Shown: positions 1 through 58,221 of the stretch, piece by piece
Layout: each line of letters begins with the position of its first letter
How positions within the stretch are numbered: the first letter of the stretch is position 1
Assembly: GCF_026151205.1 (NCBI RefSeq)
Contig: NC_087083.1
Location: 5,000,460 to 5,064,459, forward strand
Length of the DNA stretch: 64,000 nucleotides
Direction of reading: 5' to 3'
Origin: Bolinopsis microptera
Lineage: Eukaryota > Ctenophora > Tentaculata > Lobata > Bolinopsidae
Translations under genes and position numbers: made by a program
The notes under the pieces: generated by a model
The model's input: only the letters and a program-made list of their open reading frames with translations
The model's database searches: none
Told to the model about the DNA's origin: nothing

Positions 1-3000
1 AGCCTTCAAGTAGACGTACAGATAGACAATCTCAAAAGACATGCAGCACAACTGGTCTAAATCTTGTAGAGATCAACATCAACGATCCACCTGTTGAGAC
101 TGAAGATCTATTGAAAACTCACAAAGATTTAAATGAAGACGTGGGTACTGAAGAGCCCATCAGCACTCCAATTTCAGAACAGGAGTTGTCTTCAACTAAA
201 CAATTGGAAGCTGATCATGAGCCGTCTGAAAAACCAATCAATGATGCGCTGTTAAATGAAAATGAATTTACAGCTACCTCTCTCATTCCTACACCTCTAA
301 TGAATGTTTCAAGCTCCGGAACTCTAAAATCTGTATCCAGTTCTGGTTCATTGCAAACAATGGAAAACTCAGAATCAGTTCCTCCTGCTGACAAAGCAAA
401 CGACAGTCTCAGGGCAGGTGATGTTCCTGATAAAGACCCTACCACTCCAACGTTATCAACATGCAGCTCTAGTTCTGCCCTCTCAAAAAGTCTCATGGTC
501 AACAGTTCGTCTTCAAACAGCTCTGAACAATCTGCTGCAATGTCTTTTTGTACTATAACTAATGAGCCAATACAACAGCTTGTTGTAGATGTTGTTGATG
601 AGGTGTCAGAAGATTGTGTTAGTGTCCCGTCTCCAGAACGTGGTGGTTGGTCTGAAGACGAGATTGACGAGATTGATGTCGACAAAGCAAGCAGTGACCA
701 AGATAGTAGGTCATCATTTGAAGTCACAGAACACAAGAGATGTTTGAGTATCGGCAGTACAGCTAGCTCTTCAATTCTTATGTTGCAGTCACCCTATGAT
801 ACCACAGATGGAGACAAAAGTGATAAGAGTGATATCAAGAGTGATAAAAGTGATGAGAAATCAGATGAAGATTCAATGAAAACCCCAACTGACCTACCTG
901 CTCCTCCGACACCTACATTGGAACTTGCACATCAAACAATCGTGGAGGAAGTACCAGCTAGCAGTGTTCCTGCACGAATCATAACTTCTCCAACCCACAG
1001 TGATCAGAGTGATCTCATGGTTATTTCAGAACCAGACACTGCTTCAAACAACGAGCTTATGAAACTCAAGGAAATACTTCATGCAAGGGAACAGAGGCTG
1101 TTCAGGATGAATCATGAGTATGTTCAAGTTCAGGATGAGCTGCAAAGTGAACGACAAAGAAGTCATAATCTTGAGCAGAATCTTAATCTTTTGAGTCAGA
1201 AGCATACTGTTTCTGTGGAGAGGCTTGAGGATGAACTGGCTGCTATGGATGATCTTAAGAATCATCTGGAGGAAGAGATACAATCTATGAGAAATCTTGG
1301 CGATATAAATGAGCTGAAATGTGAACTAGATGAAAAGGATCAGCTCATAGAGGAGTTAACCATGGAGGGAGAAAAGTTGGCCCAATCAAGCTTTAACAGC
1401 AGCAATAATGTTAAAAAACTTCGACAAAAAGAAAAAGAGGACGAAAAAATCATCAAGGATCAGTCAGAGAAAATAGAGTCCCTCTCAAGAGAGATTGAGC
1501 AATTGAAAGGGAAGATGAAAGACCAGCAGGCAACCGTTCATGAAAATGAACAAAACATATCAGAACTGAACTCTATTATAAGCTCCCAAAGTGAAGAGCT
1601 CTCAAACGCCAGAACAAAACTAGAAAACTGCGAGTCAGAAAATCTTGCCTTGAAAACCAAAGTGGACGGTTTCCAACTAGAAATAAATTCTCTTCGAGAT
1701 AGAAACGCTCAAGCTGAATCACGGGCCAACCAAGAAACCCTCAGTGCAAACATAAAAGCAAAAGAACAAGCCCAAGCAGCGGTGGAACAGCTGCAAGCCA
1801 GCACTGACTTGACCATCAAACAGCTAAACTCCCAAATCGAGGAGCAGCAGGAGGTGATTGGTCGGTTGGAACAGCAAGCTGTCTGGCGAGAACAACGTCA
1901 AAGGGACCAGATTCAGGAGCTGCACCTACGCGTTGAGGATGCAGATGGGCGCAACCAGGATATTTCAACTTCGATCACTGCGTCCACACAGCCACTTCTC
2001 AGGCAGATTCAGCTGTTTAAGGAATCTCTTGCTAATCAGCAGGCTAATTGGGAGAGAATTGAGAATGAGTTGAAGGATAAGCTGGATCAGGCAAGGTCGG
2101 AGTTATCTGGTTCAGGTGAGCTTCAGTTTTATTCCATTCTTATCTGAAATTAATCTACAATAATTTGAAATGAAAATTACTAAGTCAGGCTTATTTATTA
2201 GTTATGATTTTTTGTTTGTTTTAAGGTCCATAGTTTTAAATGAGAATGAACCTTAAAATTAATTAGTATTCGACGAATTCTAGAAGGCTAGTTGTATCTT
2301 TGTAATTTTCACAGTCACTGAAACCCTGAACTATTTTCAGAGATGGAGAAACGGGATTTGTCAGACCGACTGCAAGTAACAAAGAACAAAGTTTCCACCC
2401 TACAAACCCAAGTTGACAACACCCGGGCTGAGCGCAACGAACTAGAAGTAACCCTCGAGGTCGTCCAAAACAAACTCTCAATCCTGGAGGAAGAGCGCAA
2501 GAAAGACACCAACAAATCCGACAGTATAAAATCACAATTTGTGCAATCTCTAGAAGAGAGCCAGAAGGAGTGTGATCATCTCCGTGAGGAGTTACTCCGC
2601 ATGCAATCATACGTTCGGGATCTGGAATCCAATAAATCAGTGATGAGTGAGGTGGAAGATATTGCCAGCAGGAGTAGTACTCCCCCTATAGAGTTCACGT
2701 CTCAGACTAATATCCTGGAGAGATCCTTATTTGGAAGTAGCACTCCAATGTCGCCGACTCAGTCTATACCTTCGCATTCTTCGTATCTCATGGAGAAGAT
2801 GGCTTCTCAGCTCAAACAGTCACAGGTAAGGGGTTTATGTTTTGATTGTAGCGTTCATTTTGATTATTTTGGGGGGATTATTTTTTGTCTACTGATCGAA
2901 ACAAACATGGTTCATTTCCTCGCCAGTATCCAGATATATAAGTTACCTGATAATTAAACCATCTTGAATTTAAGACGAGCCATAATATTGTAATAGTGGT

Positions 3001-6000
3001 TGTCATAGAATAGAGATAATATATAAGCGTTTTATCGAGTTAGGCGATGGTCAGGGGGGCGGGGGAACCCCCCCCCCCCATGGTGAGATTTTAAGCTGTA
3101 AACTGATTCACTGTTGGCACATGTCCATTTCTAATACAATTAACGTTGATAAAAATAACCTCATGTGTTTGAGCCGATTGGCTCGGTCACAACACGTACT
3201 CAAATTACATGTGCTTTAGATTTTAACTTACAATTCACTTTAACATGTCAGTTCATCCTAAACAATGGTTTACATTTTTTACGTCGAATTTAACTAAGAT
3301 CACGCACAAGATGTCATCCTGACATTCCCTTCAAATTGAACTAATATCATACCACTAACAAGATATTATCCCTCTCAGAGTGAACTAACAAGATATTACC
3401 CCTCTCAGAATGAACTAATATCATACCACTAACAAGATATTACCCCTCTCAGAGTGAACTAACAAGATATTATCCCTCTCAGAGTGAACTAATATCATAC
3501 CACTAACAAGATATTATCCCTCTCAGAGTGAACTAATATCATACCACTAACAAGATATTACCCCTCTCAGAGTGAACTAATATCATACCACTAACAAGAT
3601 ATTACCCCTCTCAGAATGAACTAATATCATAGGGGGGGGGGGGGGGGGCCAATGGCATAAATGGAGAAAATGGAGAATTACTCATAGGTTTTTCCATTTT
3701 CTCCATAGAAATAGTCTCCATTTTATGCCATTTTATGCCATTTTATGCCATTGAAAACCTGAAAAATTTAGAATTTCGAGAAAAATTATTTTAAAAAAAG
3801 ATATTTTCGGCCAATAATGAACAGGGTATCATGAAACATGGAGAAAAGTGGTTTTCAGAAAAACTTTGAAAAATTTTGACTTAGAAAATTTTCGGTCCAA
3901 GTCATTTTCGATACGTACCTCCCGTATCGAGAGCTCCCGATTCCGAGCTCTTGTTGCAAAGGGGAGGCCTGCCTTCCGAGATCGCATTATCTCGAGTCCA
4001 AAATTGTGTATCGAGGGGAAGGTGTGGACTTCGAAAAAAATATTTTCGGCAAATAATGAACAGAGTAGCATGAAACGTGGAGAAAAGCGGTTTTCAGAAA
4101 AATTTTAACCGAAAAAATATTTTCGGCTTATAATGAACAAGGTAGCATAAAACGTGGAGAAAAGTGTTTTTCAGAAAAACTTTGAAAAATGTTGACTTAG
4201 AAATTTACCCCTCGGTACACAATTTTGGACTCGAGGCTTCCTCCTGGTAATACGTTCTCGGAAGGCAGACCTCACCTTTGCAACACGAGCTCGGAATCGG
4301 GAGCTCTCGATACGAGAGGTACGTATCGAGAATGACTCGGGCCGGAAATTTTCTAAGTCAAAATTTTTCAAGGTTTTTCTAAAAACCACTTTTCTCCACG
4401 TTTCATGCTACCCTCTTCATTATTAGCCGGAAATATTTTTTTAGTTTTTCGGTTTATCGAAGTCTGCACCTACCCCTCGAGGCTTCCCCTGGTAATGCGA
4501 TCTCGGAAGGCAGGCCTCCCCTTTGCAGTGCGAGCTTGTTTCGACTTTCGAGGATGTAGGTCTCACTTCTCAGTGCCTATTACTCTCCCCTATTACTCAC
4601 TCCTGCTGTAGCCTGTAGAAATAACTTGACACTAGGCTTGAGTAATTATGAGTTTGCCTGAAGTGTGCCTCTACTAACCTAGTGTAAGCATCTAGTAGCC
4701 TACTATGAGCTTTCATAAGCTTGTTACGCCCCTAGTTAACGTAAATAAACATGTTAGGATGTCCAGTTTAGGTGTTAAATGGTGTTAAAGATGAAATTTC
4801 GAAGACAAAATTCATGGCATAAAATGGAGAAAATGGAGAATTACTCATGGGTTTTTCCATTTTCTCCATGGAAAAAGTCTCCATTTTATGCCATTTTATG
4901 CCATTTTATGCCATTGGCCCCCCCCCCCCAATATCATACCACTAACAAGATATTACTCCTCTCAGAGTGAACTAACAAGATATTACCCCTCTCAGAGTGA
5001 ACTAACAAGATATTACCCCTCTCAGAGTGAACTAATATCATACCACTAACAAGATATTACCCCTCTCAGAGTGAACTAATATCATACCACTAACAAGATA
5101 TTACCCCTCTCAGAGTGAACTAACAAGATATTATCCCTCTCAGAGTGAACTAATATCATACCACTAACAAGATATTATCCCTCTCAGAGTGAACTAATAT
5201 CATACCACTAACAAGATATTACCCCTCTCAGAGTGAACTAATATCATACCACTAACAAGATATTACCCCTCTCAGAGTGAACTAACAAGATATTACCCCT
5301 CTCAGAGTGAACTAATATCATACCACTAACAAGATATTACCCCTCTCAGAGTGAACTAACAAGATATTACCCCTCTCATAGTGAACTAACAAGATATTAC
5401 CCCTCTCAGAGTGAACTAACAAGATATTACCCCTCTCAGAGTGAACTAATATCATACCACTAACAAGATATTACCCCTCTCAGAGTGAACTAACAAGATA
5501 TTACCCCTCTCATAGTGAACTAACAAGATATTACCCCTCTCAGAGTGAACTAACAAGATATTACCCCTCTCAGAGTGAACTAATATCATACCACTAACAA
5601 GATATTACCCCTCTCAGAGTGAACTAACAAGATATTACCCCTCTCAGAGTGAACTAACAAGATATTACCCCTCTCAGAGTGAACTAATATCATACCACTA
5701 ACAAGATATTACCCCTCTCAGAGTGAACTAATATCATACCACTAACAAGATATAACCCCTCTCAGAGTGAACTAACAAGATATTATCCCTCTCAGAGTGA
5801 ACTAATATCATACCACTAACAAGATATTATCCCTCTCAGAGTGAACTAATATCATACCACTAACAAGATATTACCCCTCTCAGAGTGAACTAATATCATA
5901 CCACTAACAAGATATTACCCCTCTCAGAGTGAACTAACAAGATATTACCCCTCTCAGAGTGAACTAATATCATACCACTAACAAGATATTACCCCTCTCA

Positions 6001-9000
6001 GAGTGAACTAACAAGATATTACCCCTCTCATAGTGAACTAACAAGATATTACCCCTCTCAGAGTGAACTAACAAGATATTACCCCTCTCAGAGTGAACTA
6101 ATATCATACCACTAACAAGATATTACCCCTCTCAGAGTGAACTAATATCATACCACTAACAAGATATTACCCCTCTCAGAGTGAACTAACAAGATATTAC
6201 CCCTCTCAGAGTGAATTAACAAGATATTACCCCTCTCATAGTGAACTAACAAGATATTACCCCTCTCAGAGTGAACTAACAAGATATTACCCCTCTCAGA
6301 GTGAATTAACAAGATATTACCCCTCTCATAGTGAACTAACAAGATATTACCCCTCTCAGAGTGAACTAACAAGATATTACCCCTCTCAGAGTGAACTAAT
6401 ATCGTATCAAGAGCAGATCAGGAGTTTGTCACTAAGCAAAGCGTCCTTGAGCGCGGAAATTACTAACGTCTCCAAGAAGTGCGGTGAACTGGAACAGAAG
6501 ATCGTGGACCTGCCTTTGATTAAGAAGGAGAATAAGGTGGGTATTTATTATATTATTTATTTAATTGTTTGTTAAATTGTTTGTCAAATAATTTTTTTAG
6601 AAACACACCATACAAACTGTACATAAAAATTAAGGTAACGGTACTGAAGATATTATGACACTATTCCTCCCGTTGTTATAAAGACTTTGTTTTGTTGTTA
6701 AACAATTCCCTTCCACAAATATAAATTTTTTAGTAAAAAACACGCAGAGTCACTCTAAGTCTAAAAGAAAATGAACCCTTCGCACGACTTTGGATCGGAT
6801 TAAATTTTGGCTCAAGAATTGGATCATGAAAAAGTACATTTAAAAAAGTACATTCACATACCCTTATATACCAAACCAATTTGGTGTAAAAATACAACAT
6901 TTACCACATTTTGGTTATATCGTACATTGTGCTAACATTTATACCACTAAGTTTTATTATTACTGTAAATTATATAATTGTGAGATGTACTGAGTAACAC
7001 ACACAACAACAGTAGTGGTTCGATGTGGTGAAAGTTACTGATACCATTATGGCTGAAGTGTATATTATTATACATATTTATTTATTATTATGTATATTTT
7101 ATGTAGGCTATTTGCATACTTTTGTTCGTGTTGGACGGAGAAATGATACGACCTTGTAATCACAAAAAATCGAAAAAGTATCCATTGAAATTTAAAATCA
7201 ATAATGATTCTAAAATGTATAATCATTGCTTACACTGAAACTCATAACATTATAACTGATACGATCTCTCTAAAGTGAACCTCAGTTCCGCTTACAGGCA
7301 GGCTGCAGATGTGGAGAGGGTCATCGCCATTTCTCATTTATTTTTGGAGGTTCAATTTTCGCTATTATATTGAAGGCTGGTAAAATAGCAATAATCATCA
7401 ATTAATTTCGATGATTTGACCATTCACTAAAACTTGTCCATCGATAAATGGTAGTGAAGGCGATTTTTTTGCTATCATAGCCATTTATTTAATTCTTAAA
7501 CTTTTTAGCCATTTCACCAAGCGAAAATTACATTCTCCATTTCTTTTTTTTAAAGTGGCGATGATTGTTCCAGACATATAGCACTAATCACAAAACAGTA
7601 CAGAGAAATCATCATAAATTTAACAATTCTTCGTGAGCATTAATATTCTTATTTAATAAGCACACTTTGCTTACACCCAAAAGATAACACAGTGTGAATA
7701 TACGTGAGCAGTAACTGAGTAACTTGGAATTTTTCATATACACAAACTACAATGAGTCCATGATGCGGTTTTTTCTTCCAAAGGAATCTGTTCCGGTAAT
7801 TATAATCTTTGGAATGATAAACTGCACCGGATTTGATGTTTGAGCAGTTGCGGTGATAATGTTCATTTCCATTCCTTCGCCTGGTATATCTTGTGTGATA
7901 TCTGAAGCTAACCCTAGAACTGCAAGTAGATTACTCAGCCTCAATTGGAGGCTAATGAAGAGTTGTTTTGTTTTGGTAAATAATTGTTTTTTGTCCCCGT
8001 TTATAAGCGGATTTATGACTGAGTTGATGGGTAGTATGATTAACGAGAATATGGGATATGTTGAGGTTGCATCGATCTGTCCAAGGGAATGTAATCCACA
8101 AACAAAAATAAACGGTACCCAGCATATGAAATCTGTTAATATAATCATCGCAATTTTTCTTTGGTCCTTTTTCCTTTCTCGAACCAACTGCATTTGATCG
8201 ATTTCTTCCAGTTCCACAGTTTCAGCCGATGTTTTTGTTTTGACAATGATGAGTCCATAGCAAAAGCAAATTGTTAAGAAGCAGAACAAGTTGACTCCTA
8301 AGCAAAGCCACACAAAGGCTTTTTGTGGATCATTGTTCTGGACGAAGTACTTGAAAAGACAAACTCCGTCTGTACCATAAAAATGGATTTTCTTTCGGTC
8401 AAGAGTCCCTTTGTTGTAATCACTTGTGAACATTTCGTCAATCAGTGAGTTTATGCGTTGCCATGAGGTATCATCTTGTAACCTTAAATTCCCATAGAAA
8501 CTTTTTATAACACCGATGTGAGTTTTTTTATCCACATACGGTAAAAACAATTTTACATTAGGGTTGTATGTCATTCCGTTAACAAACAAATCTTCAAAAG
8601 AGGATAGAAGAGGCGCAATAGCTATCATAAGGCTTGGAACAGTAACAATCATAATCAAACCAGCGATTTTCGATAAAAGGTTTTCTAGCATACTAAACTT
8701 TAAATTAAAAACTTCGAACAAACGGAACATGCTGAATGAAGTCATCGAAAATAGGGATATTTGTGCGCCAAATGTACTTACCACTCCTAGCGATGAACAC
8801 ATGGTGCTTGATAACCAGACATATTGCTGCTTGCAGTATCCTTCTCCATAAATGATGGAATCCATAATTGCAATGCAAAGCAGGTAAATACCTGTGAGAA
8901 GATCTCCGATATTGATGAGCAGCGCAAATGTTGTATTGATCACAGTGTTGTTTACTCCAATGTTTTTGGATAATGATATAAAATTGCTGATCATACGCGT

Positions 9001-12000
9001 AATATTTAGTATGACTGCAACAACCCCAATGATCCAACTGACTACTTTAAATAAAATCCCTGAAATTATTTGCCTACCACAGTCTTCACCACATTCATCC
9101 GAGTAGTCAGAGCATTGAACAATGCCGTTGCACATTTGTGTGCTGGGAATGAAGTCTCTGGTCAAATTACAAGAAAAAACGTTAGAACAGTTTGTTTCAT
9201 CGGAAAGGTCTCCACAATCGTCCACTAGATTACAAACTTTGTCATGAGTTATACAATGTTCGTTTTCACAACGAAATAGTTCCTTTTGTAAATACCTATT
9301 TGTAACACTTATAAAAGCTAAACTGGTCCCATCACGTGTGACAGATATAACATTATCTTTAAAATTTTCACCTCCACAGGCTTTCGTGAGTTTGGCGACT
9401 TTTAATGGACAAACCAGAGAGTGTAGACATCTTTTTTTGCAGGTCATATAAACGTATTGCTCACCATAAAAGCTTTTGCATTCATGTTTTTTCTCTGGTA
9501 GAAAGATTGACAACGCACTTACTCCTAAAATGCCGGTGTCTGGGATTTGGAAGGTTTCATGAGAGCACGATGAGATGTGCTGACCCATACTAAGAGCAAT
9601 TCCAGGGAGACAGTATGACACAAATTTTGTCGGGAAATTCTTAATGTCCTTCCATAGGCGTTTATGATAATACGCTTTACTTATAACATTTTTGGATGGT
9701 CTTGTTTTTTTACAAGCAGCTTCTTCCACTGAGCAGGTGTTTAAGCCATTACACATACTCTCCAGTTTCACAAATCCAGTGGTCTCTGGCCCACACTTGA
9801 ATACATTTTTACAAAAATGACCTTCTGGCAAGTATCGGAACGAAGTGCCAACTATGCAGGTCGGCCAGAGGTTCAGTTCATCTTCACCTCCGGTACAATC
9901 CTGAAATCCATCACTAAGCCACGATATGGGCAGACTCAGAGGCATATCATGACGATATCTGCGGGCACACGTTCTTTCAGTCATTTCATGACATTCCTCC
10001 ATATTTTCATCACTATGATCAACACAATCAAAATTTCCATCACAAATTTGATGTTTATGAACCTTGCATCGGAAAGAAGGTTCTTTGCACAGTACATCGA
10101 AATGGTCATCACACAAAGAGTTTACCAGAGGTAAATCCATACAAATGATTGTAGGAGACAAAGTTGTCATAAATCCGCTTATAGGACATGTCAAGACAGC
10201 TCGCTTTGCGTCCGTGCAATTCATTTGGTCAAAATAATTATTGCATAAAGGGATGACATTATCATCGTAGAACATAATATGTGATATATTTATGACAGAA
10301 TTTATGACAGAATATATGGGGTATTTACCTAAAGCTGCACATCTTGTAAAATTGTGAATTGGTATCGAAAGGAAATCGCTAATATGCTGATATGCTGATA
10401 TGCTGGAAATACATATCTGGGTATCAGATTTCAAATCCAAGTCAAAACAATTCCTCTCGTCTTCCCCACCATCACAATCCCACACTGAATCACAAATTTC
10501 AATCGGTCTCACATATGTTTGTGTTTTTCCTTTTTTGCAAATAATTCCATACAGAAAACCGTTGCAAAATGCTTCGTCGAAACAATCTAGAGAATCGCAG
10601 TGTAGGTCGCACAAAGAAATGATTATTTCAGAAACTTTTGGGCAAAAGGCTTTCATATCACAAGAAACAATTGATTGAAACAGTTTGTCATTTCGCGTTT
10701 TATCGCAAACCCAACTGTAATCCATAATTTCATGCCATTTTTTACCTCTGAAACGTACATTGGATGTATTGCACATAGTTGCATCGTAAATACCATCCAG
10801 GTCCTTCAGTTTATACTTTACTTCTTCATTAATCGAATGCAAAAGAAGCTGGTAGTTGAAATGCTTATCATTTGGGCATATTTTAGAAACATAAACTTGG
10901 TATAAGTTCTCATCCTCGTATAGAGATGGTTTGGAGATAAATGCAAGTACATAAATGACTGTATAGTATGTTTCTGACCATACACATTTCTGAACGTTAA
11001 AAAAATGATTATAAACACATACGATTTGAACTGTTGCACCGTGATGTAATTCCTTGCACTGTCCTGAGATAAAATGTTTGTTCTAAATTTATGTTGGAGA
11101 CTTGGAGAGGAAAGACTAGCTTGAACAATTCACGATAATAATCGAAACCCTAATTCACTGCAAGCCCTGATTTACTGCAAACCCAAATTTGCCGTGGCTG
11201 TTAGCTTTCTTTCAAACTCCACGGTAAATTGGGGCTTTAATGTATCATCATCTACAAAAGTAAGTAATACTGCAACATCCAAACTTCTAAGGCATCAGAG
11301 TCCAAGATCCTAAATATCGTTCACATACTACGTAATCACGTTTTGGAAAATGTTAACCCCCCTCCCCGTAGTCAATTTTACACACAACTAGGCTATTGTG
11401 TCAAAATTACACTAGCGTAATCACTTGGAAACCCCTTTCCCCCTCGGCTAATTACGTAATATGTGAACGACTACTATGCGAGCACGATGCGTCCTAAAAT
11501 TGAATTATGCGAGAAAAATGCTGACGGAAGTTGTCCAATCTTACCTGGTTTAGGGTTGCACGAAAGAATGATATAGGGTAGTAATTCTCCAGAAGTAACT
11601 CTTATGTTGTATGAACAATCATCGAACTTCATCACTTCGTCCTCACAATGGAGATCAGATATAAGAAGGTAGGGTGTGTAGTAACCAATTTCTGCATAAC
11701 TATACAATTTCTCTTCATCCATATAGTCCACCCAGTCTACAGAAGTTTCAAACCCCAGTTCTTGACAGATAAGGTTGGCTGCTTTGTTGGAAAAATTTTC
11801 TGCAACAACTAAACCAGCCTGAGGTTGTAAATTGTCAAGAGCTTTTCAAAGTAAGCATCCAATTTAATGTTATTTGTTTGTTACTAGTTAGAGTTTTGAA
11901 CATGGTTCCTCATTTATATTTAAGTAAGTTCAGCATATCACTTACAATAAAAACTGTAAAAACTTTCATAAAACTAGAAAATTACCCCAAAACTGGCAGA

Positions 12001-14355
12001 AGCAGCTTCAAGAATTCCGGAGGTTGATTTAGCAGGCACGTTTGGTCCAGTCATCAGTCGAAATTGTAGCCTTTCTGTGGGTTTTCAACGTTACGTGTTT
12101 ATTTTAAGGGTCATGTAATTTTGCTCGTAACTTTGAAAGGTATTATAGAATTTCTTTAATCGGTATGAGAAAACTGTGCGGACATAGACGAGCTTTTAAA
12201 GTTTAATGACAAGAAGAGGGTTAATCACGTGTGGTTAATCACGTTTGGTTAATCAGTAATCACGTGTGGGTAATCACGTGTGGTTAATCACGTGTGGTTA
12301 ATCACGTGTGGTTAATCACGTGTGGTTAATCACGTGTGGTTAATCACGTGTGGTTAATTACATGTGGTAAATCACGCGTGGTCAATCACGCGTGGGTAAA
12401 CTTGTGCCACTTAAGATTACCCACTCCCATTGGATTAGGAATTCAAGCTCTAAACATAATCATAAAAATATTAAAATCAGCCTAGAATTCATCTACCAAA
12501 CAAACTAACCTTGGGTGATAGAAACTCCGGTTTGATTTGATGCTGTGACATAGCCGATACAAGAGTAAATCAGTGCTAGTAGCAAACCACCGTGCATAGT
12601 TCAAATTCCTGTAGAATGGGAAAAGCTGGTTTAGGAAGTAAATGTATGTATATTTTCTCAGAGAAAGTTCAATTTGATAAATTAACAGGTCAATAAAGCA
12701 ATAAATTTGGTTCACAGTAAATTTAATTCACAATAAATTTGGTTACAAAAATTTTGGTTGCCATAATTTTAGTCACAAACTTCGCACATTTTTAGTCTAC
12801 AACAGTTTTAGTCACATTTTTCGACTTTTCGAGACTATTTTTCCTTGCATTTATTTGATTTTTTTCATTATTTAGCTATTGTTTCCCGATTTTGTACATA
12901 AAGTCATACTTTCAAGTTTAACGTCAGAATATTAAATGGTGTATCATAACATATAGCAGCGGTTTTAAAGGATAAATTCTAGAAGGGGTCATTTCACATA
13001 ATTACTTCAATGAGTTAAACTAGATGCAGATACTGCCTGATGGGAAAAGGATGTAAGAGAATGTGAAAGCATTAAAGCAGTGGATTACACGTGTAGGATT
13101 TGCTTAAAATTTAATAGAATTAAAGTAAAGAAGATTAAATATGAGCTTGCTTTTACCTTGATTCAACTATAACATGAACGTGCAAAAAATTCAGAATCAA
13201 GTAGAGCAAGGAAACAACGAGTATTATATCTAAGTAAGTAGTAAGTACCGTAGGTGGATTGTGGAGTTTGCAGATTTGCACTGACCGATCCTTCACTACT
13301 ATATAACATGGGTTATATTTGAATACCTTCTAATGATATCCATTGTCCACAGCCCGTTAAATATAGATAACTCTTTGTAGGTGACACTACATGGTCAGGA
13401 TTTTGTAATGAGATTTTGAAGTACAAAACAAACTCTTTAAGAGAGGACAATGTTATGAACGTCAATTCTTACAACTGAATTTAAGTACTGCTCACTAAAA
13501 TAGTAGGAGCTTGTATTTAAGATGAGTTTACTAATGAGGCTATCTCAGTCAATCATCGTAATAACATGATTGTAATATTACACTATAGATATTTAGTATG
13601 GTATGAACGGCACGCTATAAAATACCAATCTTGCCATCTAGTGCATATTTTAAGTAAAAATATTTAAAATAACGTATATTTTTGACGAGATATTAAAGGG
13701 CCACAAAAATTATATCCGTCATTTAAATGAAGAAAAAGCCGTACCTTTAATTTAAGAATTTAGTACCTTACTCCGTTTTACCGCGCCCTGATTTACAGTG
13801 AATCCTATTTACCGCGGCCATTTACTTCCTCAAATTAATGCTGAACATACTTAACATACTTATACTTATTCACATACTTATGTGAACAATCAAAACTCCG
13901 ATTTACTGCGAATTCAGATTAACAGCGGCCTTTCCCCAATACCACACCTTACAATAACACCATAACACTCTACCATAATACCCTATAAAAACACCTTACA
14001 ATATCACCCCAACACCCTACAATAACACCCCAACACCCTACAATAACACCCCAACACCCTACAATAACACCTTACAATAACACTCTACAATAACACCATA
14101 ACACCGTACAATAACACCCCAATATCCTACAATATCACCTTACAATATCACCCTAACACCTTACAATAACACCCTACAATAACACCTTACAATAACACCT
14201 CAATGTCCTAGGAGCTACAAACACGTTACGACACGTTACTACAAATGTACGGCGAGAAAGCAGAAGAAGTCCATGAACTTCAGCTCGATCTTACAGACGT
14301 ACGTGAAGCGTACAAAGCCCAGATCGAGCAACTTCTCGCTAAAGTTATCCGATAG
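1..14355 (+). CDS. TMF1: TMF1 (TATA element modulatory factor / ARA160 golgin), 3' four exons, 5' partial
   Basis: Exons read as <3-2115, 2341-2825, 6390-6536 and 14212-14355 (stop TAG); phases 1, 0, 0 agree at every junction and all introns are GT-AG. The visible product is 962 residues and the frame is still open at the window edge, so the start codon lies upstream. TMF1 is a Golgi-associated coiled-coil protein that binds Rab6 and tethers membranes. An acidic, Ser/Thr-rich N-terminal half is followed by continuous coiled coil from about residue 340 to the end. Diagnostic family matches are STQPLLRQI, the GEKLAQSS/KKLRQKEKE stretch, and the C-terminal LLQMYGEKAEE followed by a DVREAYKAQIEQLL helix (TMF_TATA_bd domain). 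The spacing across the exon 2/3 and 3/4 joins equals that of vertebrate TMF1 as I remember it, which supports both junctions. Intron 2 contains a splice-site minisatellite and intron 3 contains a whole antisense gene. Confidence in the identity is high. Confidence 0.9.
2898..2942 (+). repeat. Fragment of a dispersed repeat (3' part of the CACGTGAC/CCAAT family)
   Basis: The stretch AACATGGTTCA, then CCAGTATCCA, then GATATATAAG closely matches 14591-14640 (AACATGGTTCACC, CCAGTATCCATATC) and, less closely, about 24045-24085. It lacks the E-box part seen in those copies. It lies in TMF1 intron 2. Confidence 0.5.
3338..3631 (+). repeat. Splice-acceptor minisatellite, 5' block
   Basis: About seven tandem units of 30 or 44 bp lie in TMF1 intron 2. 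Each unit carries CTAAC, then about twenty bases later TTACCCCTCTCAG or TTATCCCTCTCAG, then AGTGAACTAA. This is a branch-point-like motif, a pyrimidine tract, an acceptor CAG and a copy of the first exon 3 bases. The block is separated from the main array only by the inserted element that starts at 3632. Confidence 0.9.
3632..4929. mobile_element. Foldback DNA transposon with G-run/C-run termini and 9-bp target duplication
   Basis: The element begins with a run of Gs followed by CCAATGGCATAAATGG and ends with ATGCCATTGG followed by a run of Cs. It is flanked on both sides by AATATCATA (3623-3631 and 4930-4938), a 9-bp duplication of a minisatellite unit. Each end holds a self-complementary module (about 3650-3755 and 4810-4917) ending in tandem CATTTTATGC repeats. 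The interior has two arms of about 250-300 bp in opposite orientation (about 3810-4075 and 4150-4440), so the same conceptual peptide is readable on the plus strand of one arm and the minus strand of the other. No transposase is visible, so it is non-autonomous. A 9-bp duplication would suit a MULE-like or related enzyme, but the family is not identified. Confidence 0.8.
4930..6389 (+). repeat. Splice-acceptor minisatellite, main array ending at TMF1 exon 3
   Basis: About forty more 30- and 44-bp units run without a break to base 6389, where exon 3 begins. The 44-bp unit equals the last 25 bases of the intron (ACTAACAAG through CCCCTCTCAG) plus the first 19 bases of exon 3 with two changes. 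The 30-bp unit lacks 14 bases between two CTAA copies. The last seven units (6180-6389) are all 30 bp, and two of them end CAT instead of CAG. A 90-bp three-unit period, marked by GAATTAAC and CTCAT variants, shows higher-order duplication. Confidence 0.92.
6537..7746. other. TMF1 intron 3, first part; 3' flank of the antisense GPCR gene
   Basis: AT-rich sequence with no credible exon on either strand. It starts at the exon 3 donor (AATAAG followed by GTGGGT) and ends at the stop codon of the antisense receptor gene. I see no TE ends or tandem arrays here. Confidence 0.6.
7747..12597 (-). CDS. SRCR- and LDLa-repeat G-protein-coupled receptor, nested in TMF1 intron 3
   Basis: Exons on the minus strand are 12597-12510, 12074-11986, 11818-11545 and 11063-7747, all GT-AG with matching phases, giving 1255 residues. 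Exon 1 encodes a signal peptide (MHGGLLLALIYSCIGYVTA). Exons 2-3 encode an SRCR-like domain (about residues 28-150; ANLICQELGF, DLHC and a late DDC). The long last exon encodes five LDLa-like cysteine modules near residues 341-356, 483-508, 530-553, 748-776 and 782-812, with ICDGNFDCVDHSDE and VCNLVDDCGDLSDE as the clearest. Seven hydrophobic segments follow from about residue 818, including LLINIGDLLTG (TM2), ICWVPF (TM6) and NPLIN in TM7 in place of NPxxY. The DRY motif is absent; the equivalent stretch reads SMFRLFEV. This fits rhodopsin-class receptors of the GRL101/LGR-like LDLa group. The ligand is unknown. Confidence 0.85.
11145..11260. repeat. Dispersed GATTTACTGC-type repeat, copy 1
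   Basis: It contains CCTGATTTACTGCAAACCC, then TTGCCGTGG, and ends in ACGGTAAATTGGGGCTTT. Related copies lie at about 13785-13940 and 30040-30130. The ends are partly inverted (GATTTACTGC versus GTAAATTGGGGC), suggesting a small hairpin element. This copy lies in the last intron of the GPCR gene. Confidence 0.5.
12215..12400. repeat. 14-bp minisatellite with a CACGTG in each unit
   Basis: About ten copies of TTAATCACGTGTGG lie in intron 1 of the GPCR gene; the last copies degrade to CACGCG. Each intact copy contains a palindromic E-box. Confidence 0.85.
12598..13780. other. Upstream flank of the GPCR gene inside TMF1 intron 3
   Basis: No coding exon or TE ends recognised. The presumed GPCR promoter lies here, but I see no decisive core-promoter motif. 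Confidence 0.5.
13785..13940. repeat. Dispersed GATTTACTGC-type repeat, copy 2
   Basis: It contains CCCTGATTTACAGTGAATCC, TTTACCGCGGCC, and again CCGATTTACTGCGAATTC with AACAGCGGCC. It is related to the copies near 11150 and 30050. Confidence 0.45.
13940..14205. repeat. Minisatellite of ACAATAACACC/CCAACACCCT units, abutting TMF1 exon 4
   Basis: Imperfect 10-22 bp units (CTACAATAACACCCCAACAC and variants) run to within about ten bases of the exon 4 acceptor (AATGTCCTAG, exon from 14212). Confidence 0.8.
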
Positions 14356-31024: not shown

Positions 31025-31270
31025 CCAAGGTAAACAAACAGCACTCTAATGATAATAAGGTAAACAAACAGCACTCTAATGATAATAAGGTAAACAAACA
31101 GCACTCTAATGATAATAAGGCAAACAGCACTCTAATGATAATAAGGTAAACAAACAGCACTCTAATGATAATAAGGTAAACAAACAGCACTCTAATGATA
31201 ATAAGGTAAACAAACAGCACTCTAATGATAATAAGGCAAACAGCACTCTAATGATAATAAGGTAAACAAA
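31025..31270. repeat. 26/30-bp minisatellite
   Basis: About eight copies of a unit with GGTAAACAAACAGCACTC followed by TAATGATAATAA. Two copies lack four bases (GGCAAACAGCAC). Confidence 0.92.
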
Positions 31271-34200
31271 CAGAGCACTTTATTGTAACAATGGGAACAA
31301 TGCACTATGTTAACAGGACAGTTGCAGGAAGCAGTCAGCTGAAGTTATGCCAGGTATATTTATGTTATTAGTCATGATTTTTCCAGGCAGGTTTGGGTTA
31401 GAGTCTACACTCTGCATATTTACTTTAAAGATATTGAAACTCGATGATAGCTGAAGATTTATTGAATTTAAACCAATTTAGGGATTTCATAGTTCATATT
31501 TCTTGTTTTTATTGCCAAGCTTCTCATTTGACTAATTCTCAAAAAAGTAGTAAAAACAGTTCCTGGATTAAGCACCTGTGGTTTGAGTTTGTTAAAATGC
31601 CACAAAACTTCATACCATCACCACAACCACAGAACCGTCAACAAATGCATACCAAACATTCCCAGAAATGTTACAAATAGCCCATTTCTTCAGCCCTAAA
31701 AAGGTTCCATGCTGTGTCTCTGTGTGTCTTAATCCTGTCCTCTGATCCCCCATAAATGGACATTCCACACACAATGCGCCACAGAATGGACATTCCACAC
31801 ACAATGCGCCCGGAATTTTGATAAACGTGTATAACATACCGCTCTGTTCTCAGCATTCTGATACAATATCCTTACCAAAAAGGGTAACATTTTTCGTGAA
31901 AACTGGTATGTGATTAGGCTCGCATCACATTCCATAATCTTACACCATTGAGGGGTATTTCGGGAAATCAGTCCGTACTAGATATAATTATATTATGTGT
32001 AAGATATCACATTTGTAGAGGACCCAGAACACCTGGATCAACAAGACTTAATGTGTCACACACACACGCACACTTTCCCAAATACCGATCTGAAATTCCT
32101 CAGAACTCGATCCCACATTTTTGTGTCAGTGTTTGAATTCCAGAGTTGAATTCTACTGAGGCAGGGGAAGAGAGGTGTAAATTCCAGCTTTCCACATCGT
32201 GATGATTATTTTAAGAACATTTCAGTTTTTTCTAAATTAGACTCAGTCATGACAATGCTTTAACGAAGGTAAATTAAATAGATAAATCAAGTATCAAAGT
32301 TTCTACGTCATTCTCAAATTATTAGTTGGAAGTATTTTTTTAAACATCGTGATGAGATATATGAATTATGATACCCAAACTGTTGTAAGATTGCTTGATA
32401 TATTCAGCATCTGTTACAAAGCACATTTGGTAGCACGACTCGTATTATGCAAATATGTGAAATATGTGCGACATATGCGAGAAATATGTGGGATATTTCA
32501 AGAGGCATGGAAAATTTCCCACAAAAATGTCTAGTATGACCAGAAATCGGGCATATATATCCACGGGAGATAGTAAATGTAATCTTCTGTCCGCGGGAAC
32601 GGTTATGAGTTATTCGATTACCGTTTTACAAGGAATATATTGATAATAAGAGCACTAATCGAAGAAAATGTCACGTGATCATATCTACGAGCCTAGTTAC
32701 GTCACCCGGCCCCGGTTACGTCACATTGATACCAAATTTCCGTATTTTTAGCTGGGTTGTAAGCTGAGAGGGTGTGAGACAATGCTCGTTGGGACGGATA
32801 TCCATTTATCTCTCCTGACGTTGACTGCAGAGTACAGATGTCGATAATACTCTTGAAATGCTGATTAATATTTGCAGACAATTTGATGTATTTACACAAC
32901 TCCTCTGAATTGTAATAACAGTTAATGTCGCACATTATCGCACACTATAAACATTATCGCACATTATAAACTTTAACACAACTCCCCCGTACAATGAACC
33001 AAACCCCCATGATGAACACACACACAGACACACTCACAATAACTAGTGTATAATAACACTCTCTCCACCAATGAAATGCTTACTTTGTGCTGTTTTACGA
33101 AGAGAGGGACACCAGGTGGTAAATGTCGCTGGACTGAGCTAGGCCACACACGTACACCTATCACAATATTTACATAATAAAATTGTTAAGATTATTCGAA
33201 TTTTGTTTGATCTAGAGTGAATATCCGAAATGTTTTACAGGCTCTAATGATGTAGTTTTACAAAGAATTCAAGCTTCATACTGTGTGTTTCCCTTCATAT
33301 CCAAATGTAACATACTTACATAACATTATAGTTACTTACACTAAGTTTTTGTGTGGTGGGGTCGTTAGTGTGAGAGGTGTTTTTGCGTGTGATAATGTTT
33401 TATATTCAATAAAACGGTCAATGACATACCAGGTTATTGGTAAAGTTATGTTTAGAGAGTTTACTATTTACACGGCCCTGTGATAATTAGAGCACAAGCG
33501 CCTCGCAATGGACAAATATTTACAAATATAGCACGAATCACTGAGCCGTTACTATTGCTGTAAATATTGATCATATCATTGGCTCCATTTATTACAGGTA
33601 CATCAAGTATAAGTAGTACGTGTTTTTCCTCTCCAATCTCGGCAATGTTTGCAGTCAACTCCATTTGATTATGGAACCTCCATTTACCTCTCTCACAGGA
33701 GCGTAAAATAACACTGTATATTAGCTAGAGGTACGCTAGAGGTATGGTAAACTGTGCAGTAAAATGCATGATCCACCAGGAAATTCAGACGAATAATCTA
33801 GAAAGATCACGCAATAAGATTTACTACACAGCGCCTACATCATTTCCTGAACTAGATATAACACTTAGAATTAGTGTAACTTTACTATAAAGTATGCGTA
33901 GCATTAGACTCTGAAATAGTACGTACATTTTACGTGTAAAGTACGTGCACAATGTACTGTCACGTGTCACAACGTAAATCGCAGGGGAATATATAACATA
34001 TTAAACATACTCATAGCAATGTTGATCAGGACGCCGGCCTAAAAACAAACATTACCAAATACAGTCTCTTTCAACTTCGCAAATTATTATTATTTACACA
34101 GCACTCAGACAGTAAAACTATAAATAGAACGCTATTTAAAATACCACAGAGATTAGGAAGATAAATCATTCTGATTTCCTGGTTTTATTTCCTCAATATG

Positions 34201-51424: not shown

Positions 51425-54400
51425 TTAAAACAGACCTTCGTCAAATTCAGTTAACATATATCCATGCGCGTTTGATTCTAGGTAAAGACTTTGGAGCGTG
51501 TATCTACATGCAAGCATGCGCTTCTGCAAAATTACCAACTGTTCTTGAGAATGGGAATTTATACATGATCCAAGTCTACTAGGATCTATGTCTGATTCTT
51601 CTTCATACAAAGTCAAATCGTTTTGGTCTACTTCTAAACTAAGGGTTTGAATTTTGTCTTGGAGTTCAGTAACAAAGTCATTTAACTTATGGATATGTTG
51701 TCGAACATGCGTAATGTAATTTTTCTGTGCCTCATAATATGGTGCCATATCTTTCAATAGGGCAGGTGGATACTGTTTTTGTATACTGACCAATGACCCG
51801 ACAACCATATCGAATATTATCAAGTCTTTGTCAACGTCGTTGTATATTTTGGCTAGACATCTAACTTGAAAGCTATTTTTCAATCGCTTATAATCCTTAT
51901 GATCTATTGCAGGCAATTTTTCAAGAAGTCTTTTAAAAGTTTGGGGCAACTGGATTTGAGCATCATTGATAGTTTCTATCGAAGTTTCAGATAGAATCTG
52001 GTTGGATATATTGATATTAGTACTCTGATCATGACACACAAGGTGTTTTCCTGAAACTAACTCAACCAAATTTTTGTAAACAAGCCTATCATCTTGACTT
52101 TCAATTTTGAATTTTATGTTGTTGTATATGGCCTCTTTTGTTTCGAGAATTTTTGAGATACTGGAAACTTTGATGTTGTTGATACCAAAGGGAGGAAAAA
52201 ATTTACCTTCACAGACTGAACAATCATCTGCAGCGCATCCACAAGACTTATAACTGAACACAAAAAAATCCTTTTGTGCAGTAGATACATATCTGTCATC
52301 ACCATTGCAGACTAAAAATGGAGAGAGCCTTTGTAAGAGGAAAGGAAAATCTTCGCACTGTTCAATGAACTTTTTAGAATATGAAATTTCTGGGCGCGGA
52401 GAATTTTTCAGAAAATTTGTCATCTTTTTCGAGTACCCACTGCTCATATTACTGAAGTGAGTTCCATGATAGTGCCTAGTTGCCTCTAACCGCCTCATGA
52501 CATGCAATAATAGCTGAGGTTTTGAGTGCTGTTGGTTCGTAAAATTTCTAACAATGTTTTTTAACTGCCGAAACATGTCTTCGTGACGGCCTGCGTTGAA
52601 GCTGATAGAATTTTGAAGCTCAAATGCAATAGGCAGGTAGTAGATTACATTCACACAGTAAGTGGACCTAATGATTGTTTCTTTACTAAATCTTGGAAGA
52701 ACATTTTCAAGACTTTGTAGAAAGTAAAAAAGCAAAAAGGTCAAGTTATGCAGCCTTACAGCTTCGTAAGAATTCCTTTTAGACTCATGCTTATAGCCGT
52801 AAAGTTGAAGTTCGCACAATACCCGATAGTAACCAACAACAGTACATTTCAGACATTTCTCAATTATGGATATAGTGAATAGATGGCCACATTTATGACA
52901 TTGGTCAATCAGTCCAGAGGGGAAATATTTCTCTTCAAGATCTTTACATATATCAACTAAAGCTTTTGCCAATGATTCAGCAGATTGTTTATCTTTAAGC
53001 AAATAAAGCTCATCTCCTGTTTTGTGTACTATAGCATGGATTGCTTTAAGGGTACTATAATCATTATCATTAAGGTGAATAGAGCCAGGAATGTACTCCA
53101 AAGATTTTTTGAGGAGACCTTTCAGATCATGTAAAACCTCTAGTGGAAGTACTGACCACTTGTGTAGGTTAAGGAGGGATAGATCAGTATAAGGATGATT
53201 TGATAACATGGCTGGCATACTTTTAATACCACAAAGAAATTGTACGTGTTTTTCCCTAGCATCCGCTGCATCGACAAAGGGTATTTTTGCCTTTTCGCAA
53301 TACAATCTAGAATTAATTTCCTGAAGATTTACATTAAGGTTATCTCCAGGTTTATCAAAGAAGTTTCCTTTGCTTGCAATTAGACGCTTGTCACTAACTG
53401 ACAAGTGATCATAGGTCAACAAGTCTTTGTATGAAGCGTATTGCGAAATATCCATAGGTAGGGAGCACAGGCGGTATGGTCCGCTCTTATTTTGGCCATT
53501 TTCACTACATCTAACAGGGTTGTCCCCAAAGGAAATTGTGAAAATATCGTTGAAACTTATACCATTTACTGATTTTGGAGTAGATAATGTAAGGATATCA
53601 TTCAGGCGCATTTTATCGAATTTTCGCTCCGCCTCAGTGGTTGATTTCGACAAACCAAGCACATAAATTTGTGGAGTCTCAATTTCTTTTTGCATATCGT
53701 CCTTGTCCATGCCAGGAGGGCACACATATGTTGCGATATTGTAAATTATTTGAAACGTGAATTGAACATGTGATCGATTCGCTATGGTTGCATGGTCATA
53801 CCATATCCCAATCTCTCGGGTTGTTTCGTATTTTCTTACCAATTTTTGCAACTCTCCTTTTTCTAAGTTTTGATGACAGCTGTTTAATATTCCATACTCT
53901 TTAAACATTTTCAATATTGTTGCCTTGGTCAGAGTGCTGTAGTAGGAGGGTTCTTTAGCGCGAAGGTATTTTTCATGTTTATGAAGAGTAAACTCGCGTA
54001 ACTCGTCGAAAGTCACTTTGCGTAATTCTAAGTTGATTTCAATTTTTTCACCAGTTACGTGATGGGTGGCAGTGATTGTTTCTGCCGATTGTGACTGACC
54101 TATCAAAATTATCTTATCTTTGACAAGGCGATTCATCTCAGCTATTGCAGACTTTTTGTTAGGAAACCGTGGAAATTTATATTTGCCAATCAGTTCGAAT
54201 TGCTCTAGTTTGGCGCGTCGCCGGAATCCAATTTCAAAAGCACTGAACAACGTACTAAAACGATCTTGATCCCCATTTTCAAGCTTTTTTATATGATGCA
54301 TCACTATTGTTTGGGCATAGATGCCTGGCCGAGACGTGCCCCCACGAGATCCTATGATCTGATACTTTTCACCTAATGCCTGAAAGAAAGTTTTCTGCTC

Positions 54401-55483
54401 AGTACCAAATTCTTTGATATGTTTTTCATAATCTAACAATAGAAGGTTAAAATCGAGTTCAGGAATGGATGACTGTATGTTCTTCATCTGTACATTAGGA
54501 TGCAATGCAATAATTTCATCAACTGTTTTGTGTACTTTTTTCGGTTTGCAATATAACTTTCGGTCCAAAGATACTATTTGGTTATTGGGAATGGCTGTCG
54601 CAAAGTATAGAAGCGCTGACTGTTCGTTAAGGTTTTTCTGAAAGATTTCTAAGTTTTCGGCTACTTGATCTGGAAGATTTTCAGTGACTAAACTGAACTC
54701 ATCGAATGCGGTATTGTTTAAATTTGATAACAAAGTATGCACTTCTAGTGAGCTTTGACCGGATTTTAATCTAGATTCGTACAATTTAGTTACAATAGAT
54801 TTTAACTCTGTGTCAGTTATAGGATCATCATTTTGAATGCAAATTTTGCAAGCAGCGTCTTTAACAAATTCTTTCATAGAGAGATGCTGTTCGGAAGAGC
54901 TCTCGAGGGTATTTTTTGCGAAGGACCTGAATTCTTCATCAAGGCTACTTAACTTTATTCGCATTCGTGCAAAAAACTTTTTACAAGATGGTCCCTTGTA
55001 GTAGCCTAAGAATTTTGGCATTCTATCTAAAACTGAAGATTTTGTATTTTCAAGATGAGCAGACTCCTTAAACAAATAACCTATAGCACATATGCAGTTA
55101 GGCAATTCGTTTATACTTTCAAGTTTTGTTAGACATTTTTTAAGTAACTCGTTCTCTGTCAGTGGAGCATCAAATATATTTAATCGCTCTCTAACATCAG
55201 AAACCATGGCCGTTACTGGAGTAACGACGGAAGAACTTGAAGGTAGAGAGGATCTTTTGGAATCAGGGGTGAAAATTTTTGGAGTTCTCCCAGGTACAAA
55301 ATCACAATCAACAGCCATCGAAGAACTAGAAGAAGTCTTAGGAGTTTTACATGCGACTGGAGTGTAATTTAAATTACGAATGTTGATTGTACCTTTAACT
55401 TTTCTTACCTTAGGAGTTGTTTGAACATCCAAATTGGATTCACTGATCCTACGTTTGTTTTCGTTGATTGGAGTTGTATCCAT
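51425..55483 (-). CDS. 1352-residue intronless ORF, probably a DDE-type transposase or its derivative
   Basis: A single long frame with ATG at 55483-55481. Residues 1-100 are Ser/Thr/Pro-rich and basic (ETTP/KTPKTSSSSS style). A central region contains IWYDHATIANRSHVQFTF (Asp563), then SVLPLEVLHDLKG (Asp786), a zinc-ribbon-like CHKC...CLKC (862-880) and NAGRHEDMFRQLK (Glu968). The order D, D, C-x2-C pair, E resembles a large group of uncharacterised cnidarian-type proteins I remember with DHS/LHDLKG/EE-F motifs, which look like DDE transposases. A further Cys cluster, SCGCAADDCSVC, lies near residue 1130. No introns, no flanking inverted repeats found, and no stops, so it is either a young TE or a domesticated gene. 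The catalytic assignment is inference. Confidence 0.55.
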   Translation of the reverse strand: MDTTPINENKRRISESNLDVQTTPKVRKVKGTINIRNLNYTPVACKTPKTSSSSSMAVDCDFVPGRTPKIFTPDSKRSSLPSSSSVVTPVTAMVSDVRERLNIFDAPLTENELLKKCLTKLESINELPNCICAIGYLFKESAHLENTKSSVLDRMPKFLGYYKGPSCKKFFARMRIKLSSLDEEFRSFAKNTLESSSEQHLSMKEFVKDAACKICIQNDDPITDTELKSIVTKLYESRLKSGQSSLEVHTLLSNLNNTAFDEFSLVTENLPDQVAENLEIFQKNLNEQSALLYFATAIPNNQIVSLDRKLYCKPKKVHKTVDEIIALHPNVQMKNIQSSIPELDFNLLLLDYEKHIKEFGTEQKTFFQALGEKYQIIGSRGGTSRPGIYAQTIVMHHIKKLENGDQDRFSTLFSAFEIGFRRRAKLEQFELIGKYKFPRFPNKKSAIAEMNRLVKDKIILIGQSQSAETITATHHVTGEKIEINLELRKVTFDELREFTLHKHEKYLRAKEPSYYSTLTKATILKMFKEYGILNSCHQNLEKGELQKLVRKYETTREIGIWYDHATIANRSHVQFTFQIIYNIATYVCPPGMDKDDMQKEIETPQIYVLGLSKSTTEAERKFDKMRLNDILTLSTPKSVNGISFNDIFTISFGDNPVRCSENGQNKSGPYRLCSLPMDISQYASYKDLLTYDHLSVSDKRLIASKGNFFDKPGDNLNVNLQEINSRLYCEKAKIPFVDAADAREKHVQFLCGIKSMPAMLSNHPYTDLSLLNLHKWSVLPLEVLHDLKGLLKKSLEYIPGSIHLNDNDYSTLKAIHAIVHKTGDELYLLKDKQSAESLAKALVDICKDLEEKYFPSGLIDQCHKCGHLFTISIIEKCLKCTVVGYYRVLCELQLYGYKHESKRNSYEAVRLHNLTFLLFYFLQSLENVLPRFSKETIIRSTYCVNVIYYLPIAFELQNSISFNAGRHEDMFRQLKNIVRNFTNQQHSKPQLLLHVMRRLEATRHYHGTHFSNMSSGYSKKMTNFLKNSPRPEISYSKKFIEQCEDFPFLLQRLSPFLVCNGDDRYVSTAQKDFFVFSYKSCGCAADDCSVCEGKFFPPFGINNIKVSSISKILETKEAIYNNIKFKIESQDDRLVYKNLVELVSGKHLVCHDQSTNINISNQILSETSIETINDAQIQLPQTFKRLLEKLPAIDHKDYKRLKNSFQVRCLAKIYNDVDKDLIIFDMVVGSLVSIQKQYPPALLKDMAPYYEAQKNYITHVRQHIHKLNDFVTELQDKIQTLSLEVDQNDLTLYEEESDIDPSRLGSCINSHSQEQLVILQKRMLACRYTLQSLYLESNAHGYMLTEFDEGLF

Positions 55484-55794
55484 GACTATGTTAAAAACGA
55501 AATTTGACGAAACCTGATCGATTTAAAAGCATTTAAATATAAAGTAAACAATAACATCAACGATTAATACATTGCTACTTATTTCGTTATTTCAGCCTTG
55601 GAACAATTTTTATAAGTAGTAGAATTGTAAATTGCAATCGATCGAGAGACAGTTCATGATGAGCAAACGAAATATTTAGCAAAGACAGCTTCATAATTGA
55701 TTTTTTACACCTGAAAATAAATTGCTTGCGGAGTGTCTATATGAGAATTTCGCACTCTGTGTCGAATTCGCTCAATTTGATATTGCGCGCTGAT

Positions 55795-57729: not shown

Positions 57730-58220
57730 ATTCTTAATATTATATTATTATATATATCCTTAGCAGTATCCACATTTATAATGGACCAAGTGCAATATCC
57801 ACATCAAACCACGTTTTTAAATTCATGGGTGGTGGCAGTGGTGAGGCCTGTCGTTTCTGTAACAGCTTCATTGATTCTCCCGTACACCAGCTCCTATTGT
57901 GTCTGGAGGTGCAAGACACCAGTTACCTGCAACTGAAAGAAGAGCTGGGTGGGCAGACTCACATTTCTATCTAGATGAAGTGTTAACAAAAAGCAGCACA
58001 CAAAAAGCATTCATTAGGAGGGTCGAATTTCTTTGGGGACAAAATGATGCTCTCCAGGATTTATCCGACTAGAAAGATCATGAAATAAAGACTCTGCAAA
58101 CATCTCAGAGAAATATTACCACCATAAAGAACAAAGAGGGAGTATCCTGGACCCCGAAATCCACCACTTTTCTGTACTTTCAGAGGTACCTGTTAGATGG
58201 CCTCTAGTTGAACAATAAAA
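57730..58220. other. Target region of the downstream retrotransposon
   Basis: A short plus-strand frame crosses the arm and its flank (57589-57936), and other small frames occur. None is recognised. Confidence 0.35.
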
Positions 58221-58221
58221 C

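Follow-up and report, generated by a model that had tools for sequence, protein, structure and literature searches.

Among the closest described relatives of the locus analyzed here is the variable number tandem repeat (VNTR) in intron 18 of human ABCA7. It consists of about 12 to 427 copies of a 25-bp unit; the first of these supplies, with its GT, the canonical donor of exon 18, and single-unit retention was observed at a frequency unchanged with repeat length (PMC5954066). At the exon-intron boundaries of recent human segmental duplicates, minisatellite length change alters splicing; those repeats have 30-bp units and four repeats on average, and the focus of that report is on new introns arising inside repeats, not on amplification of an existing acceptor (PMC2812944). 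The present analysis concerns a 64,000-nt stretch of the genome of the ctenophore Bolinopsis microptera (NC_087083.1, 5,000,460 to 5,064,459; the window, to whose positions coordinates refer), in which a minisatellite built of 3′ splice sites lies against exon 3 of the gene TMF1. As with the ABCA7 VNTR, a splice site of the gene itself forms part of the TMF1 unit, the array lies directly against the exon (6389/6390), and unit number varies, with 48 versus 26 units in two copies in one genome. Unlike the donor-side ABCA7 repeat with its measured usage, the TMF1 array is acceptor-side, the site that it repeats being the acceptor with which exon 3 begins, and it is known here from sequence alone; whether the ABCA7 unit includes exon bases is not stated in the PMC5954066 passages, whereas the TMF1 unit does include them. 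Donor-side splice minisatellites are thus known, and the TMF1 array is to acceptors what the human ABCA7 repeat is to donors. A second human case, said to be the gene 6-16/G1P3 (IFI6), reportedly has a minisatellite with multiple splice donor sites, as the title of a 1995 Nucleic Acids Research article (23:1854), cited in a paper on G1P3 (PMC2572611), has it, and is likewise donor-side, in contrast to the TMF1 array. In NAGNAG and other tandem alternative acceptors, the start of one exon is contested by several AGs, with residues gained when the choice is in frame. Such acceptors share one branch point and stand a few bases apart, whereas nearly all TMF1 units have their own branch-point-like motif, pyrimidine run, and AG. 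A literature search (titles and abstract starts, with few subscription papers covered) returned no precedent for an acceptor-side array of complete acceptors across an intron-exon junction. One candidate precedent, PMC7536079, was rejected since its alternative acceptors are in the fifth and sixth exons and its repeat array is in the second exon.

The array makes up the terminal part of TMF1 intron 2 on the + strand (3337..6389) and comprises 48 units of 30 or 44 bp with one interruption by an insertion; its last unit, ending at 6389, is the exon 3 acceptor. Sequence parsing gave 48 unit ends between 3337 and 6389, and of the 47 intervals between them 26 measured 30 bp, 20 measured 44 bp, and one was a 44-bp unit split by the insertion, the edge of the first unit being set by the left flank. 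A first-pass annotation, made by a model from the letters of the window, had described about fifty units, each with CTAAC and a full acceptor. The number and the overall span agree with the parse, although positions 3632–4929, which the annotation did not mention, are an inserted element and not array, and the description of the units applies to most of them: CTAAC stood at the expected place in 46/48 units (TTAAC in the other two), and AG was present at 43/48 unit ends, reading CTCTCAG, with the remaining five reading CTCTCAT. Identity with the real acceptor was found in 34/48 units over positions −25 to −1 and in 30/48 over −25 to +10, and the pattern CTAAC-N12-CTCTCAG occurred 43 times in the window versus 0 times in 100 dinucleotide shuffles. 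At the real acceptor, the predicted branch point is the CTAAC at 6366..6370 (+; branch A at −21), a role that we take from the remembered consensus, and CCTCTCAG at 6382..6389 (+) supplies the pyrimidine run and AG. Written from its exon part, the 44-bp unit is AGTGAACTAATATCATACC followed by ACTAACAAGATATTACCCCTCTCAG. As proposed in the first-pass annotation, this corresponds to the end of the intron plus about 19 exon bases, ACTAACAAGATATTACCCCTCTCAG matching the last 25 intron bases at 25/25 and AGTGAACTAATATCATACC matching the first 19 bases of exon 3 (6390..6408, +) at 17/19. The description of the 30-bp unit as a 14-base deletion of the longer one between CTAA copies was also exact: the shorter unit equals the longer one minus exactly 14 nt, with six equivalent placements of the deletion owing to the CTAA...CTAA repeat in the 44-bp unit.

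Units vary by single changes, namely CAT for CAG at −1, T for C in the pyrimidine run, and TTAAC for CTAAC at the branch point, with a mean difference among units of 2.3% over a 34-nt core. Higher-order runs are shared within the array, the longest being a repeated run of 14 units, and these point to segmental amplification. Between 5350 and 6329, each of the five CTCTCAT units, whose acceptor has lost its G at −1, has two intact 30-bp units after it (5/5); because the follow-on is the same in every case, the five probably go back to amplification of a single lost acceptor. No excess RNA structure was detected in window positions 6092–6406 (z = 0.32 over 100 shuffles), leaving RNA structure unsupported as a reason for the array.

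TMF1 is encoded on the + strand, and its protein matched the profiles TMF_DNA_bd (PF12329; 44.9 bits, cut-off 35) and TMF_TATA_bd (PF12325; 53.4 bits, cut-off 29.1), the latter with profile positions 73–115 in the last exon. PF12325 gave a single match in the genome, and a control over 14 genomes gave none above and three below the cut-off. Joining the exons (end at 2115; 2341–2825; 6390–6536; 14212–14355) yields a single frame and a 962-residue C-terminal part finishing in ...AKVIR. The first is a large exon (1..2115, +) that carries TMF_DNA_bd, extends upstream past the window, and is placed by PF12329, the gene model, and P0001, the 1108-residue database protein of this locus. Exon 2, in the numbering of the first-pass annotation, occupies 2341..2825 (+) and ends in phase 0 with ...SQLKQSQ before a GTAAGG donor at 2826; intron 2 occupies 2826..6389 (+; sequence, gene model, and P0001); exon 3 occupies 6390..6536 (+), with 147 nt, phase 0 on both sides, and a GTGGGT donor at 6537; and the last exon (14212..14355, +) contains the stop and the end of TMF_TATA_bd. 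P0001 has both TMF domains labeled and the same junctions, splicing exon 2 onto 6390, from a gene model whose basis is unstated by the database. The B. microptera annotation drew on RNA sequencing and Iso-Seq (PMC10232365), so that the use of 6390 in P0001 would be indirect transcript support.

The start of exon 3 was examined by comparison with relatives. One of these, P0124, is encoded on a JGI contig of 1061 bases that spans exons 2, 3, and last (...SQLKQSQ GEIRGYQEQIRSL...) and is, given its shortness, presumably a spliced transcript. Its alignment across exons 2, 3, and 4 was ungapped with 84/112 residues identical, which argues that the exon 3 start at 6390 is ancestral and that no residues encoded by retained array units belong there. 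P0001 and P0124 thus bear out the assignment of the last unit as the real acceptor and of 6390 as the exon start; neither places the start of exon 3 elsewhere. The first-pass annotation had rested this assignment on a spacing of 34 residues between the SQLK and ELEQK landmarks, equal to that of vertebrate TMF1; the number is actually 35, but the equality stands (35 in Xenopus P0006), and P0124 also has 35. Two further relatives, P0002 and P0003, reach the same ...SQLKQSQ end of exon 2, after which coding homology stops. The other three proteins, found among six candidates in a search for missing exons of close relatives, gave no information on how exon 2 meets exon 3: P0121 covers the join of exons 3 and 4 but starts within exon 3, and P0122 and P0123 start just upstream of the last exon.

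Tandem repeats are common in the window, where 95 rows covering every kind were listed, often with overlap, and the acceptor of exon 4 also has an array that stops 12 bases short of it, as might be expected if an ordinary intronic satellite had spread up to or into exon 3 and the exon had copied the repeat. Genome-wide pattern searches gave a different picture. Allowing up to three mismatches (34-mers), 74/74 matches of the 44-bp unit fell in two TMF1 copies on contig C12, and all 45 genome matches of an exact 23-mer pattern of the unit were at the same two places; reversed-pattern controls gave 0 matches. The unit was therefore found only in TMF1 at this threshold and not at many unrelated loci, ruling out an ordinary satellite. 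Moreover, the start of exon 3, SELISYQ, aligns without a gap to octocorals (GELVSMQ), frog (GEIAQLQ), and sponge (GEVHTLQ), and the exon part of the unit thus encodes TMF1 sequence conserved in those outgroups and in P0124 (GEI/GEL/SEL in outgroups). Since the exon part is conserved coding sequence, the repeat derives from the exon and not the reverse, and capture of exon 3 from the repeat is ruled out by homology of the exon start with outgroup TMF1. A spreading satellite is, on these grounds, a highly improbable explanation. Both mismatches between unit and exon are at third positions and silent from the side of the exon (TCA/TCG and TAC/TAT), as would be expected had the exon been under coding constraint since the duplication. 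The proposal that the junction itself was duplicated and then amplified is supported by the identity of unit and junction, the restriction of matches to TMF1, and the conserved exon start; the interpretation that the genuine 3′ splice site of TMF1 intron 2 was amplified in tandem to give the array is, from the sequence, well supported.

The second location of the unit is a partial TMF1 duplicate (L009; C12:5184500–5194400), about 183–185 kb downstream on the same contig, which matches the 5′ part of TMF1 through window position ~11050 (alignments of at least 400 bases) and is rearranged upstream. A second TMF1 last exon was not found by genome alignments or among PF12325 matches, of which there was only the one. 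At L009 and L014, the duplicate takes in the 5′ exons of TMF1 together with the neighboring antisense G protein-coupled receptor (GPCR) gene, with a 1102-residue open frame kept. Compared from window position 3 through the last base of exon 3, the exons of the two copies differ at 11/2745 positions, with four amino acid changes and no stop. Intron 1 shows 0/225 differences, the intron 2 flank shows 3/508 among aligned bases with 5 gap columns in addition, and the beginning of intron 3 shows 20/1138 with 89 gap columns in addition. The array in copy 2 has 26 unit ends, 23 of them with AG, in ~976 bp, as compared to 48 unit ends in ~1756 bp for the window array without its insertion. When units are coded coarsely, the two arrays agree in order over their first seven units and diverge beyond this point save for shorter shared runs, and units within the copy 2 array differ by 2.6% over the 34-nt core. 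By this comparison, array length turns over much faster than the flanks mutate, in blocks of several units.

The insertion in the window array is an inverted-repeat element of ~1.3 kb (3632..4929, without assigned strand) with G-run/C-run ends and internal palindromes, flanked by a 9-bp target-site duplication, AATATCATA, on the left (3623..3631, +) and right (4930..4938, +). A search with its inner 1191 bases returned at least 324 matching pieces, several per copy, and at least 23 copies elsewhere spanned the whole query at 90–95% identity, both counts being among the 40 candidates scored out of 1695. Sequence comparison showed the element to be absent from the copy 2 array. This insertion, the TMF1 duplicate, and the coding consequence described below go beyond the first-pass annotation. 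Tandem repeats are hard to assemble, and the second copy, a recent partial duplicate, is so similar (11/2745 exon differences) that it could partly be a leftover, unpurged haplotype. Creation of the array or of the second copy by collapsed or expanded reads is nevertheless most improbable, as the order of units is not the same at the two array loci, only one of which has the insertion with its target-site duplication, and as copy 2 is incomplete, has a rearrangement upstream, and stops near window position 11050.

The two unit types differ in their coding consequence when retained in the exon, a 30-bp unit contributing an in-frame decapeptide, SELTRYYPSQ, and a 44-bp unit contributing TAA in that frame plus a frame shift. 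Only six of the 43 CTCTCAG acceptors keep the frame (6179, 6209, 6269, 6299, 6359, and 6389, adding 7, 6, 4, 3, 1, and 0 decapeptides, respectively), all of them within the last 210 bp of the array, and the other 37/43 lose it. Adjacent to the exon is a run of seven 30-bp units (6180..6389, +), open in the frame of exon 3 and each reading SELTRYYPSQ or the same with a final H. A run of this length at the exon had p = 0.009 in 100,000 shuffles of unit order, and as a hypothesis it may be a selected in-frame buffer of 30-bp units. In copy 2, 3/23 acceptors keep the frame when the last exon of the window is used as a stand-in.

Two of several possible explanations give the upstream acceptors a function. 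In one, choice among the last intact acceptors produces TMF1 with 0, 1, 3, 4, 6, or 7 copies of SELTRYYPSQ before the C-terminal coiled coil. This is consistent with the six of 43 intact acceptors that keep the open reading frame, five being in the last seven units (all 30 bp) and the sixth (6179) in the adjoining upstream 44-bp unit, and with the single-unit retention reported for the donor-side ABCA7 VNTR. That retention event was, however, unchanged by VNTR size (PMC5954066), and two of the seven exon-proximal units are without AG (CTCTCAT). In addition, the in-frame run of copy 2 is shorter, the decapeptide occurred in 0/124 fetched proteins, and an insert containing proline looks poorly tolerated in a coiled coil. 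We consider such a working ladder of acceptors unlikely. In the other explanation, many transcripts would be spliced early and either run into the stop of the first 44-bp unit or shift frame, to be destroyed by nonsense-mediated decay, with array length setting gene dosage. Loss of the reading frame at 37/43 intact acceptors is as this brake on expression predicts, and longer ABCA7 VNTR alleles accompany lower expression and more exon 19 skipping (PMC5954066). A costly brake should nonetheless select for loss of upstream AGs, yet 43/48 are intact, although repeat homogenization could mask such selection, and this possibility is rated slightly below the ladder. Their combination, in which several of the ~40 acceptors would be used in vivo, the 30-bp run being selected in frame as a decapeptide length ladder and the 44-bp units providing decay-linked dosage control that changes with every array slip, is similarly doubtful, at the level of the ladder.

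The favored reading, to which we give a probability of roughly 0.65, is that of a junction-derived array in which splicing mostly uses the last acceptor, the others being largely neutral passengers. The 44-bp junction block would first have been duplicated once to give two copies, with later amplification by slippage or unequal exchange, and the 30-bp unit would have come from a 14-bp deletion between two CTAA words. The acceptor at 6389 would yield most productive mRNA, because only 6389 and its nearest neighbors are within ordinary exon-definition distance of the donor at 6537: acceptor 6389 and this donor define the 147-nt exon, while far units would need exons of up to ~3 kb, which exceed usual exon-definition lengths. 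Upstream acceptors would be mostly ignored or would yield mRNAs that carry a stop or are out of frame and are then lost. Slips among the last few units would be tolerated because the seven consecutive 30-bp units read through in frame as the decapeptide, and growth on the intron side would be invisible to the protein, making the array mainly a neutral by-product.

Several observations weigh against this neutral account or parts of it. Equal competing 3′ splice sites tend to favor the one nearer the donor, which predicts upstream use and, at 37/43 acceptors, mostly unproductive mRNA. Persistence of AG in 43/48 units could mean that these acceptors are kept because they are used, and the 2.3% difference between units argues against a very recent burst as the source of the array. 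Each step that concerns acceptor usage is one that we infer, and the dozens of equivalent acceptors of the first-pass annotation are equivalent in sequence, which does not by itself show usage. With respect to the in-frame run, the shuffle of unit order ignores higher-order repeats, such that the units behind its p value are non-independent, and the 30-bp run at the exon in copy 2 has only three units (p 0.085). Two negative results weigh weakly against in-frame tolerance of slips: TRYYPS was found in 0/124 database proteins fetched, and a search for decapeptide-containing forms gave one match, itself without decapeptides, in 118 candidates of about 102–324 residues, a range that a full-length isoform falls outside.

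Other features of the window were noted in passing. Within 13944–14211 lies a tandem array of another kind (ACACCCTACAATA-type), which extends to 14199, 12 bases short of the acceptor of the TMF1 last exon, placing the branch-point region of that exon in or beside repeat DNA; in the relative P0122, the residues before the last exon do not read as a ACACCCTACAATA-type repeat. Antisense within TMF1 intron 3, at 7747–11082 on the minus strand, is an open frame of 1111 residues in which LDL-receptor class A and rhodopsin-type GPCR domains were identified. Farther downstream are a 30-bp tandem array at 31027–31273, whose unit AAGGTAAACAAACAGCACTCTAATGATAAT has a donor-like AAG/GTAAAC and a CTAAT word; a 1365-residue open frame at 51425–55522 (minus strand) for which Pfam gave no match at E 0.001; and, at 58219–59820 (plus strand), an open frame for a reverse transcriptase (PF00078).

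Choice by the spliceosome among 3′ splice sites, through donor nearness, branch-point scanning, and exon definition, is known mostly from built reporters with two or three sites. TMF1 of B. microptera provides a natural series of 43 near-identical acceptors before one exon, accompanied in its genome by a second copy that differs in length, and its array shows how a minisatellite can start from a splice junction.

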